Origin: Favolaschia claudopus
Taxonomy: Eukaryota > Basidiomycota > Agaricomycetes > Agaricales > Mycenaceae
Assembly (NCBI GenBank): GCA_037176885.1
Contig: JAWWNJ010000020.1
Coordinates: 434,001-498,000, forward strand
Direction: 5' to 3'
Length of the DNA stretch: 64,000 nt
Shown: positions 33,945-44,070 of the stretch, piece by piece
How the letters are laid out: every line of letters begins with the position of its first letter
Numbering within the stretch: the stretch's first letter is position 1
The notes under the pieces: generated by a model
What the model was told of the DNA's origin: nothing
What the model saw: only the letters and a program-made list of their open reading frames with translations
Databases searched by the model: none
Translations under genes and position numbers: made by a program

Positions 33945-34462
33945 CTGTACCATTTCATTCAATTCGTATGTCACGCGTCACAGGGCCGATTTTTTACGAA
34001 TATTTTCGTACCTGTCACGGGTCACCGAGACCTTTTTCGAATGTCGAAAAAAAGTCACAAAATCTCTGAAAAATCGTCAAAAATACGATTTTTTCGCCCC
34101 CAACCTGTTTTTACCTCCTCAAAATTGCTCCTGAACACCGTTCAATGGTCAGTGTACAATCTGGTCTCGTTTAGTATAGCGGCTGGCTTGATTACACCCT
34201 TTTTGGCAGTGAAATCATGCAAAACCCTGCAAATTTTGCTCACCCTGCGAATATCTCAGTTTCAAGCTGTTTTTTTTTTCATTCATACAGTATCATACTT
34301 GCCTCAGATGCTCTAAAAATGCATGGGGAGGTGAGTGCTGTAATTTGAACAATTTACGAATTTTTTAGGGTGTCACGGCGCTCCAGGGTGTTTTGAGAAA
34401 TCCAAAGTTCGAATTTTTGGGTCACGCGTCACAGGCGGGGAGAATTGAACGAAATGGTACAG
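33945..34462. mobile_element. Tc1/mariner-like TIR element with TA duplication, 518 bp
   Basis: The ends ctgtaccatttc[a/g]ttcaattc are inverted repeats, flanked by TA at 33943-33944 and 34463-34464. The subterminal sequence repeats GTCACGCGTCACAGG. A related sequence is at 56826-57045. The right TA lies inside the left target duplication of the 34471-43847 element, so this element inserted later. Confidence 0.8.
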
Positions 34463-34499
34463 TACCAGTATGGGCGACATACTGTGCAAAAAATAATCG

Positions 34500-34760
34500 A
34501 GACATCTACTGTAAATCGAGTACAACTCCCAACTCAACTAAAATCGGCAACTTCAACTTATACGGAAGACAACTTCATATAGTAGCAACTTCAATACATA
34601 GCTTTTCATCGGCGACAACTCTTACTAATGCTCCAGCGAATTCGGCCGCAACTATTGGCTCTTGGTAAAACGGCTTGTACAACTGATTAGAGGAGCAACT
34701 TGTACTTCTGACAACTTGTTCCGTCAACAACTTTGATTTGTGACACCTTATTCCAGGTGG
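34500..34760 (+). repeat. Subterminal CAACTT array (left)
   Basis: About a dozen CAACTT or near variants spaced 10-25 bp (caacttcaacttatac, gacaacttcat, gcaacttcaat, agcaacttgtac, caacaacttt). The mirror array AAGTTG lies at the other end of the same element. Such arrays often are transposase-binding sites; that role is inferred. Confidence 0.7.
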
Positions 34761-34910
34761 AGTGATAGGGAAGCAACTTTTGCAGAGTCTGGGATACATT
34801 AAGTTCAAACGTGCGTGTACATTGAAAATTCGATCGTTGTACGGCGAGAGTATATATATTTATCGGATTGCTGCTTTGTAGTATATTATTGATCTAGTGA
34901 GTTCAAACTA

Positions 34911-36548
34911 TCATCCCATGAAGTGCTCAGTAATGCGCATCACCGCTGTACAATATAAATCGATACCCCAGTTCCCGTCGTCCGAGAGAAAGTCCATTCC
35001 CGATAATATTTCCCTGCACTCCGATACCTCATCATCATCATTGATGACAACACCAGCTTCCCGCTCGGCTGCGACGTCGGGGTACTCTGTATAGTCTGCA
35101 GCAGTGGGATCCGTCTGTAATTCGTCCGCTGGGGGGAGAGGTGCCTCAGGATCTTGGCCGTAATGAGGATCAGAGGCGGTGGAGAGCGGATCGCCTGGGC
35201 CCCCAGTCCAGTACCCACGGTTAATTGCCTTCTCGCGGCTCAACTCAAAAATAGCGTGTGGGGATTTATTTCCGGCGGTTCGGACTTTGTGAAGGTTCCA
35301 TGAGGCGATTGTTTCGTCGAGAGACTTCTGGATTCGAGGCTGAAAGACGACAAAGAGGCAGACTCGATGGATCGGATTTTCCATGTCCAGAAGATTGATC
35401 TCCACGAGGTACATGAAGATCTCGCGGAAGAACTCGAGTGTATCCTTGCGGACATCGCGCCAGTTTCGTTCCATACGGATATTTTGCGTCGATCTATGAG
35501 GGAGATGGAGTAAAATGTTTCGACCGGTTTAAAAGACGAACCTTCCGCGAATGTAGCTTCGATGGGCCTCTCCCCATCTCGCAATCATCCTCCTCTCAAC
35601 ACCGTTATTTTCTTTTCCAAAATCTCCCCTCATACGACTGGGCCAGCCATAAATTGATACAGCGTGCAAAAACAGCGCTTCCACGGTTGCAGATCGCTTG
35701 TTATTACAACACACCAAGTATATAATCAGTCTCGAGTGACCGTCAACGCACCCGTGGACATAGAAGCCCCATGGTCGTAGCTTCTCGTTTCCGTCCATGT
35801 GCCAGAGAGCGTTAGCACCTCGCACTTTGTAGACGCGGCGTTTGATGACTCCGTTCCATCTGTGTAGGAATGAATTGGTAAGGCGCGACTGATGGACAAC
35901 AAATTGAAGATATTACCGAACCAGTACTCCGATTGCGTCAACCCTCCAAAGACTCTCCTGGATGCGTCTGATTGGAACACGGATACCCATGGCCTCCAAA
36001 TGGCCAGACATAATGTTACTCCCTGCAAACGGGTGGAGCAAGGATATTGATGATATCTTCTCGTCGAGCTCGGCATCCGAGATGGTGGTGAAGGGTAGTC
36101 GACCAGAAGATAGCCCTGCACGTTCCAGATGATAATAAAGCGTCCGGCGTCGAACACCCATCGCATCCGCCACTGCTCCCCAAGTATTGCCCATATCGTG
36201 TAGTTCAATGGCACGGTCAAGATCCAAGGCGTAACGAGGTCGGCCACGTCCGGAAGAAGGAACTGTACGGGTGCCGATGTTATGAGGGGGGTGCGGGCTA
36301 TCCAGATAGTTTTCCAAACAAGCACCGGTGCGAATTACAGCGTCGATCAAGCCATCGATTTCGGACTGAGAGAGCCAAGGATCGTCCATATTAGCTAGAA
36401 CTACATGAATGCCACGAAGCTGCCGTAGCGAGCGTTCTGCGGCAAAGAGTTCTGCGTTAGGGAGAGCCTCCACTACGAGTCGGGCTTCCCTCATGATCTT
36501 GTCGGCATTGGAGAGAAAATCGCGGACTGGATCCTCGCGAGGAGGCAT
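34911..36548 (-). CDS. Integrase-core (DD34E) transposase-like protein, 510 aa
   Basis: Three exons, 36548-35917, 35859-35542 and 35493-34911, with 57-nt and 48-nt GT-AG introns, sum to 1533 nt (510 aa plus stop). ATG 36548 has a good context (cacc before it). Residues ~105-150 hold a helix-turn-helix (IELHDMGNTWGAVADAMGV then RRRTLYYHLERAGL). The catalytic core shows ALWHMDGNEKL (D233), GWPSRMRGDFGKEN (D290) and NIRMERNWRDV (E325), a DD34E triad, all intact. The C-terminus is acidic. It resembles the 'integrase core domain' proteins (rva_4-like in my memory) found in fungi and some animals, a group without a well-defined transposon. It lies in the 34471-43847 element, ~200 bp downstream of the J-like gene, and probably mobilises it. 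Confidence 0.85.
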
Positions 36549-36745
36549 GGTGAAGGGTGGAAGAAGACACGCAATGTATTTGGCTGCGTCGTCGATTGAA
36601 AACAGAATGTTGCCGATATCGGATAATTCTATATATAAACAACCGAAAAACTTCAAATACTTATGAGTAGATCGAAGTCGGACCAAAGGAAGATCGACAA
36701 AGGATCAATTCATGCGGCAATTACAGGAACGTATACAACACAAAT

Positions 36746-39700
36746 CTACGAAAATCTGCTGTTGAGACGTTTAGTGATTGCGTCACATAGGTCTTGCCAT
36801 TCTTGAGGCATGTCTGCGTTTTTATCGGGGTGATAGATCTATTCAAACGGTGAGTATGAAGCAAAGTGGACGACAATATGTACCATTGAAACTTTCAGCC
36901 AACATTTGCGCATATTTCCTGTCGATGCGTTGGAAATCTGGGCCCAGGTTCGGCGCCGCTGATCTACTGGATGAGGGAAGCGCGTCAGAATTTCGGACAT
37001 CCACGCGTCACTGGGCATTGCCCAGATTGCATCAAGACCAGGGTTAGATACGCGCTGCGATGCGGGCAAAGGAGTCGGTCGCTGGGGGCGAGGATGAGGT
37101 GTGAAACCAGTGCCCTGATAGGTGGGTCGGGGTCGAGGCCGACTCGACTGTGAGCTCGAACCGGCGGTAGATGATGAAGCAGTTGGTGGACTCGACTCTC
37201 TTGGAACATCAAACGGTTGCTCGCGGTGGTTATATGCTTCCGGGTACGGGAATTTGGGGCGTTCCGCAAAAGGGTTTGACCTATTGAACTGCTCGCGATC
37301 ACTGGGGTCTGATCGCAATGTGAGCGCAACAATAATGTAGAAAGCGATGACGAACTCGGCTCATACTCAAACACAGAAGGCTCCGACTGTGTATCGTCGT
37401 TCTTGCCATCGTATTCAGTGCTGTCACATTCGAAGGATTCTGACTCGCTGCCAGACGATTGCGACTCAGAGAAGTAGAAAAGCGGGTATGCCAGAACGTG
37501 TATAACTATGGAGGCAACAAATCAGTAGCTAAATTTCGCTATCAAGAATTGGGTGGGTACTGAGCGGTCTTGCTACGTGTCTTATAACGCTTTTCGGATG
37601 ACTCAGATCCATCCTAACGACATGAAGGAATTGAGAACTGAAATGAATGAAAAACAAATAAAAATGACGCACCGGAGCAGCCGCAAACTTCTGTTTACCC
37701 GCGCTCTGAATGCTCGTCAGTAGTATTCCTACGCTCGAGAATAGTACAAGCTCACCTTTGAGAAATTGATCATTCGCCGAGACAACTCATTGCAAAAGTT
37801 GCCAAGCAAGGCCATAAGTGGACGATACGACGGATGAGTAGAAGGCATGGTGTCGAGGAGAGGATCGATAATCTTCTCGATGAAGCCGTCGATTCCGTGA
37901 GGTCCAACCAGTAGAGCCGCGGGGCGGATCGCTGTGCTTGAAGTGGCGCTACCAAAGTCAGCCTCCAGAGTGTTGGCGAACACTGGAACATCGTCGCGGG
38001 TGACAAGGAGGTCAAGTACGGCAAGACGATCTTCAAAATCGGCGTCCTATATCACAGAACAAACGTTAGTACACGCAGTATATGATAAAGCAAATAGATT
38101 CGACTCACCCCAAATCGATGACGGTGTTTTTGTAGAGTTTCCCGCAGCTTTGCAAATGGCTCTGGGTCGAATGCGATGCGGGGAGTTGCAGCGCGAAATC
38201 GAAGGACACCGTCGTAAATCGGAACGACAAATGTGTTGATCACAGAGACAAAGCCAGCGAGCTCAACGTACGGGAGGCGAGGCATCCAGTTCATGACTAG
38301 AGTATAAATACGTTGGAAGAACTCGATGATGGGTCCAAGCCCAAAAGGCCCGAGTTGGAACTGTGTATCGAACATCGACTCGGACTCCCCAAAGTCAACG
38401 ATCACCGCAAGGAGGGGGAAGAGTGAATCTTGGGCAAAGTCGAATAAATGACGAGGGGTCCAGCTAGACGATTCGGTTGGCGACTCCATACGCTCAAGCT
38501 GACGGATGATGTTCGCCAACACCTGTAACGGCTGAGTATAAGGCTCTGACACTGTCGAAGGAAACTACATCGAACAATCAATGCTTCGATGATCATAAGA
38601 AGCAGAATAAGACGCACCCATGGTGTTTCGATCTCGGGCTTGGTGATGTTCAAGCAAAGACGGACAACATCGTGAATAGAACTTGAGATCTCATCTATAA
38701 AAATGAATCGCACGCTTCCAACTATTTGGATGAACCGGGTCTTACTGGAAGACGACTCGTGAGGCTTGGTGTCGTCAGACAAAAGATCAGCAGGCTCCGG
38801 CTATGAACGGATGAAAATGTCATCAGCGAAAATTAAAGTATAGAACAAGCACACGAACAAAGTCAGGCGAAGGGTCGCGTTCAGGAACCTCATCCATAGG
38901 CTCCGCATCAGAGGGTCCGGATGATTCACTTCCACCTTCACGGGGGTCGTCGATGTCGAGAGGAATCGAAGAATTCCAACGAGCGAGCGAGATGAACACG
39001 CAGCGTTTGAAGCGTTTTTCTTGACGGTGCGTCTCGTTCGACCTTGAAATTGGATAGTGAGAATTGTACGGCGCGAAAAACACGACGTACCATTCGAAAT
39101 CCTGGAATGTTACCTGGCCTGCTTCACGATGAGGCTTGAGAAGTGGGTGCGCCCCACGCGAGACCGAAACTTTGGAAAGACTTCGCCATTTATAAAGACT
39201 GATGCGGCCAGAAACAACCTCCGAGTGGTCAGCGAAGGCTGCGTTGACGGCGACGTTGAGAGCATCAGGGCTGATCGAAAGCGGGACTTCAATAATCTGG
39301 ATATTGCCCGCTCGATAAAGAGACATCATTCTGGCCAAGAGACGGTGAGTATCTATGATGCATTACAACAAAAATCGACGTACTTGGGACCACTCGGCAT
39401 GAAGTATTCATTGGCGTCGACAAGGGCAGGATTTTCAACGAGCACAAGGGTGAAGATGACGAGCTTGGTTGCGGATGCCGTTGAGGAGGCGCTGCGCTTG
39501 GACGACGGTTCACCGGAAGGGTTGGTGGAGGACGGCTTGCGCTTTTGTGGGCGATCAGACAACTTCGACCAGTTCTTGGCCTGCGACTGGATGCGGAGCG
39601 TAAGAAAGAGGCTAGATGAAACAGAAGATTGAAGGAGAACACACCTGCTTCGAAGGGTCGAAAGCAAACTGAAATATGTGAGCCTTAAGCTCCGCCTGCT

Positions 39701-40095
39701 GCTTCTCCTTCTTCGAGGTAGAGGAGTCGGACTCTTGCTGGCGCGCAGCCCGTGAGTTCAACGCCTCAGCAAAGCTTTGGAACGGCGGTGGTGCGGCGGT
39801 GCTGTCGCCAGACGAGGTTGGCTTTCGGCCAGCCGGCTGAGATGAAATGAGTCAGTACTGATGAGAGAAAAGATGAGGCTGTAACGTACCTCTGGTGCTG
39901 AAGCCGAGCTTGGCTTTCGGGGAGCCGTCTGATATCAAGCGAGTCAGTAGTGATGAGAGTGAGGATGAGGCTGCGACGTACCTCTGGTGCCGAAGCCGAG
40001 GATGAAGAGGATGGGTGAGGCCGAGAGTGAGTTACTTTGAGATATTGAGAAGTCTGACTCAATGCAAAGAGTTTTGCATACCTTAACTGATTCAC
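36746..40095 (-). CDS. Multi-exon protein with C-terminal J-domain-like segment
   Basis: A long gene on the - strand with at least a dozen exons and short GT-AG introns, for example 39929-39981, 39837-39889, 39587-39644, 39331-39383 and 36839-36892. The N-terminus is Ser/Lys/Pro-rich (SSSSSASAPE, KKEKQQAELKAHIFQFAFDP). Middle blocks include LVIFTLVLVENPALVDANEY, VPLSISPDALNVAVNAAFAD, ITKPEIETPW, DFAQDSLFPLLAVIVDFGES and PHGIDGFIEKIIDPLLDT. A linker precedes the last exons, which read CWLKIYHPDKNADMPQEWQD and stop at 36746. The HPD triad in a helical context resembles a DnaJ domain, but other J-domain parts are weak. The middle shows no family I recognise. The 5' end is unresolved; coding-like sequence continues to ~40200 without a clear ATG. 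It shares strand and element with the transposase-like gene and could be an accessory protein (inference). Confidence 0.7.
39837..39981 (-). repeat. Tandem duplication of an exon-intron unit (92 bp)
   Basis: Intron 39929-39981 (53 nt) plus exon 39890-39928 (39 nt) is followed by a near copy: intron 39837-39889 (53 nt) with flanking coding GGCCGAAAGCCAA. The period is 92 bp. Both introns keep GT (gtacgt) and AG. The duplicated exon is 13 codons long and in frame. Confidence 0.8.
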
Positions 40096-40368
40096 TGACC
40101 CTGGCGGTCGGTGAGCATCGGTGAAGTGTGTCGGTATCTCAAGGGTGGACCATTGAATATTTGATTCGCTAACCGAGTCGGACCGTGAATTTCGGCGAAG
40201 TTAGAAGTAAGTGTTAGTCTTTAGATGCTCTGAGTGCTAAATCAAGCCCGAGAATGTGGTGTGCGACGGTCAGATTCGTGCTATCGGTTTCCTGAATGAA
40301 TAGCCTGTGTCGGTGGTGGTGGGAAACGACAGGGAGAGAGGCTCATCTGATGTCATCTAACAGAATCT

Positions 40369-40547
40369 GAAAATGCGCGGAAGGCGCAATAACCTCAGTC
40401 TCCCGCAATGTGGGATGAAAGACTGTATATTAAATACCTGAAAATGCGCGGAAGGCGCAATAACTACACAATGAGCAAGTAAATACAAGTAGGTAGATAG
40501 ATAGAGAACTCACCCTCAGTCTCCCGCAATGTGGGATGAAAGACTGA
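40369..40547. repeat. Interspersed duplicated motifs with hairpin
   Basis: 'gaaaatgcgcggaaggcgca' occurs near 40369 and 40440. 'cctcagtctcccgcaatgtg' (continuing ggatgaaagactg) occurs near 40394 and 40515. The latter can fold (cctcagtct ... agactgagg in the second copy). Confidence 0.7.
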
Positions 40548-40770
40548 GGGTGGCGTACAGACGAGCGCGGTTTATATGTAAGAACAAGGCTGTATGATAA
40601 GTATCAGATATCTATCAAGGGCCGGAGCGGCGGGGCGGCTACCCGGAATTATTCATATTCTGACATCATCATCAGACTTCGGCGATTCTTGCCGCTGATG
40701 GCGATCTGAACCCTATGTTTCGCGGACTGGTTAACCATTTTCCAGGGTACAAAGTAGCTCTCAATACCTA

Positions 40771-41434
40771 CAGTGGTGGCAAATAGAAATTGCCGTGGCT
40801 TTTTGGTGAAAATCTGGCTGTATACTTCACCGAATGACCTCAAATAAAATGTAGAGATAGGTATGTGATACTTTTGTACCTCTTAGATCAGTCAGCAATA
40901 TATTATGCCCTGAGAATGCATCAATCATAGGATGATTTCCGATTTTTGCCATATTCGGAAAAACACAATGAACCCTCAGGTAAAAGGTGTCATAATAGGA
41001 TGAAAGTACTTAAAAAACAGTCCTAGTTTCCACTTTGGTTGAATGGAATTGACCCTGATTTGAGCTCATAGCAGCCGCTCAAAGTTGGCTATTTTCACAC
41101 AAAATAGCTGAAAATGCAGAGAAAATAGCTAAAAGGACCACTCAAATGAGGTTCAATTCCAGTCAATCAAAGTGATAACTAGCATTGTTTTTCAAGTACT
41201 TTCATCCTGTTATGACACTTTTTTGCTGAGGATACATTGAGCTTTTCCAGATATGGCAATAATCAGAAACTGTCCTGTTATTGATGCATCGTCAGGGCAT
41301 AATAGATAGCTGAGTATTCTAAGTGGTACAGTAGTATCATATATTTATCTCTACATCTTATTTCAGGTCATTCGGTGAAGTATACAGCAAGATTTTGGCC
41401 AAAAAGCCACGGCAATTTCTATTTGCCACCACTG
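40771..41434. mobile_element. Tc1/mariner MITE, copy 1 (664 bp)
   Basis: TA at 40769-40770 and 41435-41436 flanks cagtggtggcaaatagaaat...; the inverse is at the right end. Terminal repeats extend ~70 bp (to 'cttcaccgaatga'). A second, split and right-truncated copy is at 52860-54033. It has no transposase. It is nested in the 9.4-kb element. Confidence 0.93.
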
Positions 41435-41436
41435 TA

Positions 41437-42737
41437 CAATGGGCAGCTCCAGCAAAACTCCCAGAAGCTGCCTTGGACTCGACCTTTTTCTTTTTCTTTT
41501 TCTACCTGCTTGTGTTGTGTTGTGACTACTTTGTGACGAGGTGTGATCAAGGTGTGATACTTATTTGCCGTTTCGCGAACGCGGCATGTCTAGCTAAGCA
41601 TAGCGGAGCATGCAAAGCAGTTATACATATGGGTATCTAGCCTAGAAGCTCCCTAGAGGTTGACTCGGAACCTTCAATTTCTTTTTTTCGGCCAAGAAAT
41701 GCAGTGGTTACAATCTCACGTGACCGTGATTGGACCTCAATCATTTCGTGTCTTGCGAGATCTGAATGTGGGTAGATTTCTTTTGGCAACCAGGTTTACT
41801 CAAGATACAGCAGGTTCCTCTCAATGATTGTCGAACCCGGAAACGCGGGTATAAGTCAGGCGATATGGGCGCTTATGGGCGCTTAAACTGGACTTGCAGT
41901 CCATTCAAGGGACACGTTCATTTTTTGACTCGAAATGGTGGAGATAATAAATATTAAACAGCTATTTCGCGCCTCTGAGTAATACAAAGTCAATATGCCC
42001 AAGATAACAGTTCAAATGAAAAGATTGACATTTATCCAGAATGTCGTCAGAAGTGAGAGTGGAATGAGATGGCAGCTTCGAGATATCGGGGTGGCGGGAA
42101 TAATGGAAGCTCGGCGCGTATGATTGTGGAATGCAGGCGCAATCTTGTACATACCGAGGTCAGTGTCAAACTGTGAAAGTGGTTTATATCGGAGTGGAGA
42201 AAAACCCATATTCAACGGGTAGCGCGAAGATAGCGCGAACACGAGCAGGGAATAGGCCTGGGTATCCGGATTATTCTAGCATTGATTGAACATTATACAA
42301 CATTACTCACCTTCGAGACTCAACCGTTCGGGAGGGGTAGCCGGTTGAGATTTCCTGGCCAGAACGGTATCGAAGTGGCCCGTACAGCTCGAATCATGAA
42401 AACCATGTTCGGAAACGACGGAATTCGTTCTGGATAACGAAATAGAATCAACCCGCCAAACGAAGCCACTGTGTGGTGACGTTAGTCAGCTCTCTTATTT
42501 TTCTTCATTGAGCGTTGGTTGGAAAGCCGACAGTGGAAGAATTTGAAAGCCGGTATTTGGATCATTTTGCAAAGATGATCAGGGAATCCGAGGCCGGCGT
42601 CAACGAAGAGATTTTACAAACTCCGAGACTTGGTCAAAGCAGCACACAGTGCGTGGCGCGCTTCTCGGAAACAGTATGGATGAAAAATTCATCAAAGTAC
42701 GGGAAATCAAATGATTTCTGTTCACTGTTGAGCGCCC
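41437..42737. other. No gene seen
   Basis: Short frames only. It lies inside the 9.4-kb element next to the F-box-like pseudogene. Confidence 0.35.
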
Positions 42738-43170
42738 TCATGTTAAGCGAAGAAGAGTCTGCATACCAGCTTGTTCCATTCCGGAATGCAACGTTCGAGT
42801 GTAATTACGAACAGATTGAGTTATTTGCCTTAGGGTCGTCACAGTCATCAACGGGGATGACACGTCGAGGATTGATGAGCCCTCTACAGAGCCCTCGGAG
42901 TCGGACATCGTCTCGGGGCCAGGGGTTGAGAGTAAGAAAGACATCGGTGATATTGGGAGCAGAGCGAAGGATAGTTTCCATAGCGTCGCCGAAGGCCCCT
43001 TCAACTCGAACCTTCTTCATGAAGCGACCAATCTCTTGTAAGTTGTGTTTTCAGGATGGCCCTGAGCCTCTGGCTGAGGAGTGGTACGAAGAATGATGAC
43101 GTTGTACAGCAGAGGTTTCGCTACCCGGAACTATGCCTTGCAGACCAATAGATAGCACGAGGACGCAGAG
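42738..43170 (-). pseudogene. F-box-like/LRR protein fragment
   Basis: On the - strand the pieces read CYLLVCKA-stop-FRVAKPLLYNVIILR, then FMKKVRVEGAFGDAMETIL, RSAPNITDVFLTL and INPRRVIPVDD, then (other frame) LERCIPEWNKL. This order matches an Agaricomycete F-box-type family in my memory. A TAG at 43131-43133 replaces a tryptophan expected in the family, and at least two frame changes follow. The gene is dead. The F-box itself is not visible, so the family name is tentative. Confidence 0.5.
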
Positions 43171-43439
43171 TGCCGTCTTGCTTCGGCTTCGATGGCGTCA
43201 ATCCGATTCTCAATGATTTCCACATCAATCCGAGTCGGACGTTCGGGCTCAAGTGTAGGGCCAAATTTTCCGCTAAAGTCACGAAGAAACCCTTAGCTTT
43301 GTGGAACTAGCGCATTCTAGGCAGCGGAAACCACAGGAAACTCGTTCGAGGGAGTTGCGAGCGCCGAGGGAGTGGGAAGAAGAGAGAACAAACGAAGCAT
43401 CAGCTGATCCACACAAATCGGGTTGATCGGCCGAACATA

Positions 43440-43847
43440 TCTTACTTATTCCGAAACTGCAGTGTAAGGTAAGCAGGTTGTTACTTGGATTGTCTTCGGA
43501 AAAAGTTGAACCAAGAGTTGTCCAGCGATGAGACTTGTCAACCAGGAAAGTTGTCCGCGAGGAAATTTGTAGAGAAGGAAAGTTGCCAACAATAAAATTT
43601 GTCAATTCACTTAGTTGTAGTTGTTTCAGCGCGGAGTTGAAGTTGTAGTTGCCAGCATCTCGAGTTGCAGCCGCAAAAAGTAGTCACTTCGAAAGTTGCT
43701 GTGTTGAGAAGTTGTTCGCAACTAAGGTTGTCGAAATTTCATGCCCTCAGGAGAGAAAGTTGTCATGAAATTTGATAGTTGCCTCCAAATTCTCTCAAAA
43801 ACACCGAAGTTGTGCATTTTGATTTTTTGCACAGTATATGTGCCATA
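43440..43847 (-). repeat. Subterminal AAGTTG array (right)
   Basis: Fifteen or so AAGTTG/TAGTTG/GAGTTG motifs in ~350 bp, at intervals of ~6-25 bp. They end at the terminus 'ttttttgcacagtata'. It mirrors the CAACTT array at 34500-34760. Confidence 0.7.
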
Positions 43848-43918
43848 TACCAGTATTGTACCCAACGGCACTGGAACCACAATGGTAAGTCTTCACAAGC
43901 TTAAGCGTGTAAAGGGTA

Positions 43919-44070
43919 TGGGCGATATACTGTACATTTATTATTTGCGACATGTGTGGTAAATTAGGGTACAACTTACACTTTTAGCTACAACTTTGTT
44001 GTACCGCCGGCAACTTCGAGCTGAATGGTAATTAGTAGCTTCAACTCCTCCCTGTTGACCGTCCTCGGTG
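43919..44070 (+). mobile_element. Second terminus of the 9.4-kb element family
   Basis: tgggcgatatactgtac begins at 43919 and is followed by CAACTT motifs (tacaacttacac, ctacaactttg, ggcaacttcgag). It is the same end type as 34471, only ~70 bp from the right end of the 9.4-kb element and facing away. The other end was not found in the window. Confidence 0.55.

Follow-up and report, generated by a model that had tools for sequence, protein, structure and literature searches.

The Element and Its Target Site

The stretch of DNA analyzed here (the window) comprises 64,000 nucleotides of the fungus Favolaschia claudopus (contig JAWWNJ010000020.1, positions 434,001 to 498,000), and it holds a DNA transposon of 9379 bp (34469-43847, minus strand) that, judged from its sequence, belongs to the known superfamily IS3EU. 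The element carries two genes, both on the minus strand. One codes for a DD34E transposase (34911-36548) and the other for a partner protein with a C-terminal J-like domain (36746-40153), and the two are mobilized together within one DNA transposon. The limits of the element were set by termini common to other copies and by uninterrupted targets at five loci.

The element starts with TATGGG and finishes with CCATA, its termini being TATGGGCGACATACTGTGC and TATGGCACATATACTGTGC. When compared without gaps, the terminal inverted repeats (TIRs) form arms of 26 nt that are 85% complementary, the left arm at 34469-34494 (plus strand) and the right, which reads inward, at 43822-43847 (minus strand). 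Similar inverted ends had been noted in a first-pass annotation of this DNA, together with an 8-bp target duplication, taccagta. The duplication is actually the 6-bp taccag (34463-34468 and 43848-43853); the additional ta represents the first two bases of the terminus. The empty target of the window site, GGCAGG/TACCAG/TATTG, is compatible with 6 or 8 bp alike, and it is the other copies, which start at TATGGG and are mostly bordered by 6-bp duplications, that decide against the longer form.

In the genome search, the right flank is matched over its full length at six places outside the window. All five loci fetched in the search for empty sites (L059, L060, L062, L063, and L064) hold the uninterrupted target; they are repeated copies of the flank and not necessarily an allele of the window insertion. 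The shared ends, the identical copies described next, and the uninterrupted targets bear out the proposal of a single transposon of about 9.4 kb enclosing both genes.

Other Copies and Family Size

The genome (264.6 Mb in 460 contigs) was searched with the element interval. Among the matches listed, six other copies, 1.2-9.0 kb long, start at TATGGG (L009, L010, L011, L012, L014, and L015), and all copies read at both ends have TATGG..CCATA termini. The 6-bp duplications are catatg in L010, aaggat in L011 and L012, ccgcta in L014, and gatcgc in L015. L011 and L012 are alleles of one insertion, having the same flanks and 99.7% identity. L009 and L010 share 8352 bp without a single difference, both genes included, and have different flanks, which indicates that the unit with both genes moved recently. 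A divergent second family is represented by L075 (32-9838), which has the same gene order and layout and a 6-bp duplication of its own, ctattt. By segment, its transposase is 79-93% identical to that of the window and its partner protein is 40-68% identical to the partner protein P0001. The copies with identical ends and both genes that were anticipated for this element are thus L009 and L010, with L075 as a divergent addition. In copies read at both ends, a reading that leaves aside the ends of many partial copies, neither transposase genes with different flanking ends nor ends belonging to separate short elements were seen.

The termini are far more numerous than the complete copies. When up to 3 mismatches are allowed, the family form of the left terminus, TATGGGCGATATACTGTGC, occurs at 422 places (its reversed control at 23) and the right terminus at 440 (its control at 35). 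Thirty loci with an exact left terminus were fetched, and at 19 of them the terminus belongs to an element 804-1001 bp long that is bordered by a perfect 6-bp duplication. The other 11 comprise the ends of L009 and L010 (two loci), L027, whose right end comes with one mismatch in the duplication, and eight loci with no right end within the 1.5 kb examined. When the 100 listed left ends were set against the 99 listed exact right ends, 58 left ends found a partner within 15 kb, and 45 of these pairs are spaced 690-919 bp apart.

The Transposase Gene

The transposase frame is open in the window copy from 36548 to 34911, with two introns (35916-35860 and 35541-35494), and specifies 510 aa. The protein matches PF24764 rva_4 (E=5.1e-60) and has the catalytic residues D233, D290, and E325, the last two separated by 34 residues. 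An alignment of 14 sequences, including that of the window and a coral protein, shows no variation at D290 and E325 and almost none at D233. The intact DD34E integrase-core gene reported earlier is therefore confirmed. None of the six Pfam matches of the protein at E <= 1 is a zinc-binding integrase domain, and its helix-turn-helix (HTH) matches are sub-threshold.

The Partner Gene

The partner gene lies upstream of the transposase gene on the same strand. The comparative gene model (16 exons, start uncertain) and the deposited proteins agree on its many exons. The protein is about 850 aa long; it has an N-terminal Cys-rich motif and a basic stretch (KTRSK) and ends in a J-like domain whose HPD is intact. 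This domain is encoded at 36749-36982 (minus strand; IYHPDKNADMP, with one intron inside), as located by the profile match and the structure model. Some single deposited models of the family are without the Cys-rich motif, the KTRSK-like stretch, or the YHPDKN domain. Searches that scored only about 8000 candidates sharing most words, and that say nothing about absence from other taxa, gave homologues from F. claudopus, Mycena polygramma (two), M. leptocephala, M. albidolilacea, and M. belliarum.

YHPDKN is invariant in seven aligned C-termini from the eight proteins found; the deposited model of the eighth, P0074, is without the motif. When a profile of the seven C-termini (P0074 excluded) was used, J-domain chains of the PDB ranked first, with a best E of 1.1e-4, and a few non-J domains were present among the weaker of the 48 PDB matches. 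In the structure model of P0001, the predicted local distance difference test score (pLDDT) is 72-86 over residues 771-850, and helices 814-825 and 835-852 lie on either side of the HPD. From these features, the C-terminal domain of the partner is read as a divergent J domain that retains the HPD. Pfam DnaJ found no match in five of the eight partner proteins, and since its curated cut-off was reached by none, the domain is called J-like. Hidden Markov model searches with both proteins, proposed in the first-pass annotation, thus gave rva_4 for the transposase and, for the partner, a J-domain profile match with DnaJ below threshold.

The window copy of the partner gene is incomplete. Compared with L009 and L010, about 0.8 kb is missing at the junction 40017-40020 (L009 6110-6906, including the 5' part of J exon 1), and as a result the first ~59 codons, with the start codon and the Cys-rich motif, are absent. 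Exon 1 is otherwise kept, as are the later exons, and the deposited model P0002 opens with substitute residues. The earlier description of a many-exon J-like gene on the strand of the transposase therefore holds, but not as a complete gene in this copy. Because the start of the gene is lost, the window copy probably makes no standard partner protein, even though its transposase gene is open. At 39810-39993 of the window, a 92-bp unit with one mini-exon and one intron of this gene stands twice in tandem (83% identity).

Nonsynonymous and synonymous divergence (dN and dS) were compared between the window copy and L009. For the transposase, dN is 0.012 and dS 0.176 (dN/dS 0.068, 510 codons), and for the J gene dN is 0.024 and dS 0.207 (dN/dS 0.118, 660 codons). 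By these ratios, both proteins look constrained.

Linkage of the Two Genes

A motif-pattern search of the genome found 17 J places and 17 transposase places, and nine of each are paired at 1.0-1.5 kb. Fragments of a transposase occur downstream of every one of the eight unpaired J places (C138, C332, five more, and C33:737053). Five of the eight unpaired transposase places were fetched, C321 being left out: C118 and C120 have J sequence upstream, and at C59:828661, C103, and C151 the 2.1-2.6 kb read contain no J sequence. Two further unpaired transposase places are the deletion derivatives L011 and L012.

In a protein search, 63 transposase places (one per locus out of 129 rows) were compared with the J places. 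A J match lies within 6 kb at 21 of the 26 places at least 66% identical to the transposase P0005, and at 20 of the 26 it is upstream on the strand of the transposase, as counted with a 66% line set after the table was seen and with identical copies and likely alleles each counted on their own. Conversely, a listed transposase is present within 6 kb at 23 of 40 J-matching places, including one place on C59 where the two genes are opposed. Detection of J declines with distance: in L073, a diverged J sequence (27-40% identity) stands beside a transposase of 60-66%. The proposal that the two genes form the mobilization module can thus be kept as to their joint movement, as seen in L009 and L010, in L075, and at the 20 close places, whereas a role of the J protein in mobilization is what we infer.

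Mirrored Subterminal Arrays

Motif counts confirm the mirrored arrays that had been described inside both ends. The left subterminal zone (34469-34868, plus strand) has 14 CAACT and no AGTTG, and the right zone (43448-43847, minus strand) has 15 AGTTG and one CAACT. With the longer motif, the left 400 bp have eight CAACTT and no AAGTTG, and the right 400 bp the reverse (0 and 8). In 200 dinucleotide shuffles of the window ends, the maxima were 4 for CAACT on the left and 5 for AGTTG on the right.

Nineteen short non-autonomous elements match the window element only in the terminal 24-60 bp (BLASTN). By interior similarity they fall into four groups, and the mirrored CAACT/AGTTG bias is present in each. 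The group of ten has 19 CAACT in the left halves and 85 AGTTG in the right (shuffle maxima 13 and 24), its left bias being the weaker (19 CAACT against 8 AGTTG). The corresponding counts are 36 and 34 in the group of five (maxima 14 and 13), 22 and 18 in the group of three (maxima 6 and 7), and 4 and 7 in the single-member group (maxima 5 and 4, the left maximum not being exceeded). Since they are kept in short elements with otherwise dissimilar interiors, the arrays are probably cis-acting and are putative binding sites.

Nested Segments and Neighboring Elements

Two further segments lie inside the window element. A near-palindromic foldback element of about 670 bp (40769-41436) is repeated in the genome, with at least about 26 further places, mostly 85-94% identical, among the matches listed. 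The 41710-43165 segment is absent from L009 and L010 and present in L013 and L014, and 87% matches to the last 650 bp of it lie at three other loci (on C63, C34, and C68). At one of these loci, L021, a long open reading frame gives an F-box-like match below threshold (13.0 bits vs 24.3), and the segment is possibly a captured fragment of a host gene. The F-box-like loci L020 and L022 share further neighboring open reading frames and so are part of a larger repeated stretch.

Outside the element, a short element with CTGTACCATTTC ends and a TA duplication occupies 33946-34462, between the left flank and the left taccag; it has at least 35 related places among the matches listed. On the other side, 43917-44037 (121 bp) is a further IS3EU-like left end, found at 93-99% identity at at least 27 places among the matches listed. 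The L010 element also adjoins a left end of this type.

Superfamily Placement and Proposed Mechanism

The fungal IS3EU elements of Pucciniales have TAYGG..CCRTA termini, 6-bp duplications, and TIRs longer than 30 bp, as far as the accessible part of their description goes (PMC12730594), and a second description, also accessible in part, agrees in termini and 6-bp duplications (PMC10045372). Here, TA..TA termini of the fungal type are found in the copies read at both ends. Duplications of 6 bp border the window element, L010, L011/L012, L014, L015, L075, and 19 of the 30 exact-terminus loci. The transposase is of the DDD/E integrase type without an upstream HHCC zinc motif. Because termini, duplications, and transposase type match those of published fungal IS3EU, we place the element in this superfamily by sequence, and the new two-gene superfamily of the first-pass annotation is given up; the partner gene does look new.

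The DD34E transposase would recognize the TATGG..CCATA termini and make staggered cuts that leave 6-bp duplications, the insertion products being what is observed and cut-and-paste chemistry being suggested by the IS3EU family. The mirrored CAACT arrays, whose retention is observed, would act inside both ends as cis binding sites. The J protein may be an accessory factor of transposition or regulation that acts at the element ends, where it could bring in host Hsp70 for the assembly or remodeling of the complex between transposase and DNA. Taken as a whole, an IS3EU element with a co-mobilized J gene, cis arrays, and J as accessory factor is the best explanation and a probable one.

Several observations weigh against it. 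The transposase is set beside IS3EU by published description only, and the duplication of L009 is 7 bp (caaagag). Pfam DnaJ scores 12.7-15.6 bits, against a cut-off of 27.8, in only three of the eight partner proteins. At C59:827866, J is 5.2 kb away on the opposite strand, and at five of the 26 close transposase places no J match lies within 6 kb (the two alleles of the L011/L012 derivative, C151, C321, and C103). No J gene was detectable within 6 kb at any of the 37 transposase places below the 66% line, so that IS3EU as such may not need it. Finally, 17 of the 40 J-matching places are without a listed transposase within 6 kb, each of them covering only part of the J protein.

The J gene could instead be a passenger whose benefit to the element lies elsewhere than in transposition; it might, for instance, counter host silencing or stabilize the transposase. 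Such a role has been suggested for the TET/JBP genes of other fungal transposons, and both the variation of extra genes among lineages, as far as the accessible accounts describe them, and the result at the 37 distant places fit it. The constant position and strand of the J gene beside the transposase, across families whose partners are only 40-68% identical by segment, speak against it. So does its retention at 20 of the 26 close places, although neither finding separates a selected passenger from a core factor. The passenger reading keeps a substantial chance, if somewhat short of even, and the odds that J is a selected passenger come close to those that it is an accessory factor. A stronger form of the accessory-factor reading would make the Mycenaceae IS3EU two-component, chaperone-assisted transposons, in which a required J protein binds both arrays and loads host Hsp70 onto the complex of transposase and DNA for its assembly or disassembly, and in which these components would in trans drive the many short elements that retain no more than termini and arrays; this we consider rather unlikely.

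It is very improbable that the element represents a new superfamily: the partner gene goes unmentioned in the accessible parts of the IS3EU descriptions, and the transposase has been related to IS3EU by published description, but the element agrees with IS3EU in its termini, in the length of its duplication, and in the type of its transposase. That the termini belong to two separate short elements with host genes caught between them, as the hundreds of terminus matches, the close spacing of most listed end pairs, and the additional left end at 43918 might suggest, is hardly credible, since L009 and L010 carry both ends and both genes as one identical unit in different flanks, five targets are uninterrupted, and L075 is an independent case.

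With the J protein as accessory factor, a gene carried by a eukaryotic DNA transposon would itself connect the transposon to the Hsp70/J-protein system. The family offers an experimental system, with identical recent copies in which both genes are apparently complete and many short elements with exact 6-bp duplications. The terminus and the mirrored CAACT array, retained around dissimilar interiors, make up a candidate cis code.

Comparison with Known Systems

Two systems outside IS3EU offer partial parallels. CACTA/En-Spm elements with TNPA likewise combine mirrored arrays of a subterminal motif with a second, non-catalytic protein encoded by the element. They differ in belonging to another transposase superfamily and in having CACTA ends, 3-bp duplications, and an accessory protein without a J domain. 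In polyomaviruses, the large T antigen is a nuclear protein of a parasitic genome whose J domain recruits Hsp70; it serves here as a precedent for mechanism only, and no homology is claimed. A J-domain gene in a DNA transposon was not found in the literature, in narrow searches of partial coverage that reached few subscription papers.

The nearest relatives are the fungal IS3EU elements, whose accounts are here drawn on in part. Those of rusts are alike in 6-bp duplications, TAYGG..CCRTA termini, a DDE transposase, and extra genes beside it (PMC12730594). Their extra genes code for alpha-kinase and TET/JBP proteins, the alpha-kinase gene being oriented opposite to the transposase gene, whereas the window element has a J-domain gene upstream of the transposase on the same strand; their TIRs exceed 30 bp, against matching arms of 26 nt here. 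Styx of Zymoseptoria is also fungal, with about 8 kb, a 36-bp TIR, four open reading frames, and a transposase tied to IS3EU by its authors, who searched for the element using 6-bp duplications (PMC10853768). Its extra genes are different again, two putative DNA-binding genes (GATA and CCHC) and a DUF3577 gene, with no J domain in the accessible part of its description (PMC10853768). Since extra genes differ by fungal IS3EU lineage, the J-domain partner is best understood as a further instance of such lineage-specific genes, and it would add one more accessory gene to fungal IS3EU, beside alpha-kinase, TET/JBP, and the genes of Styx.

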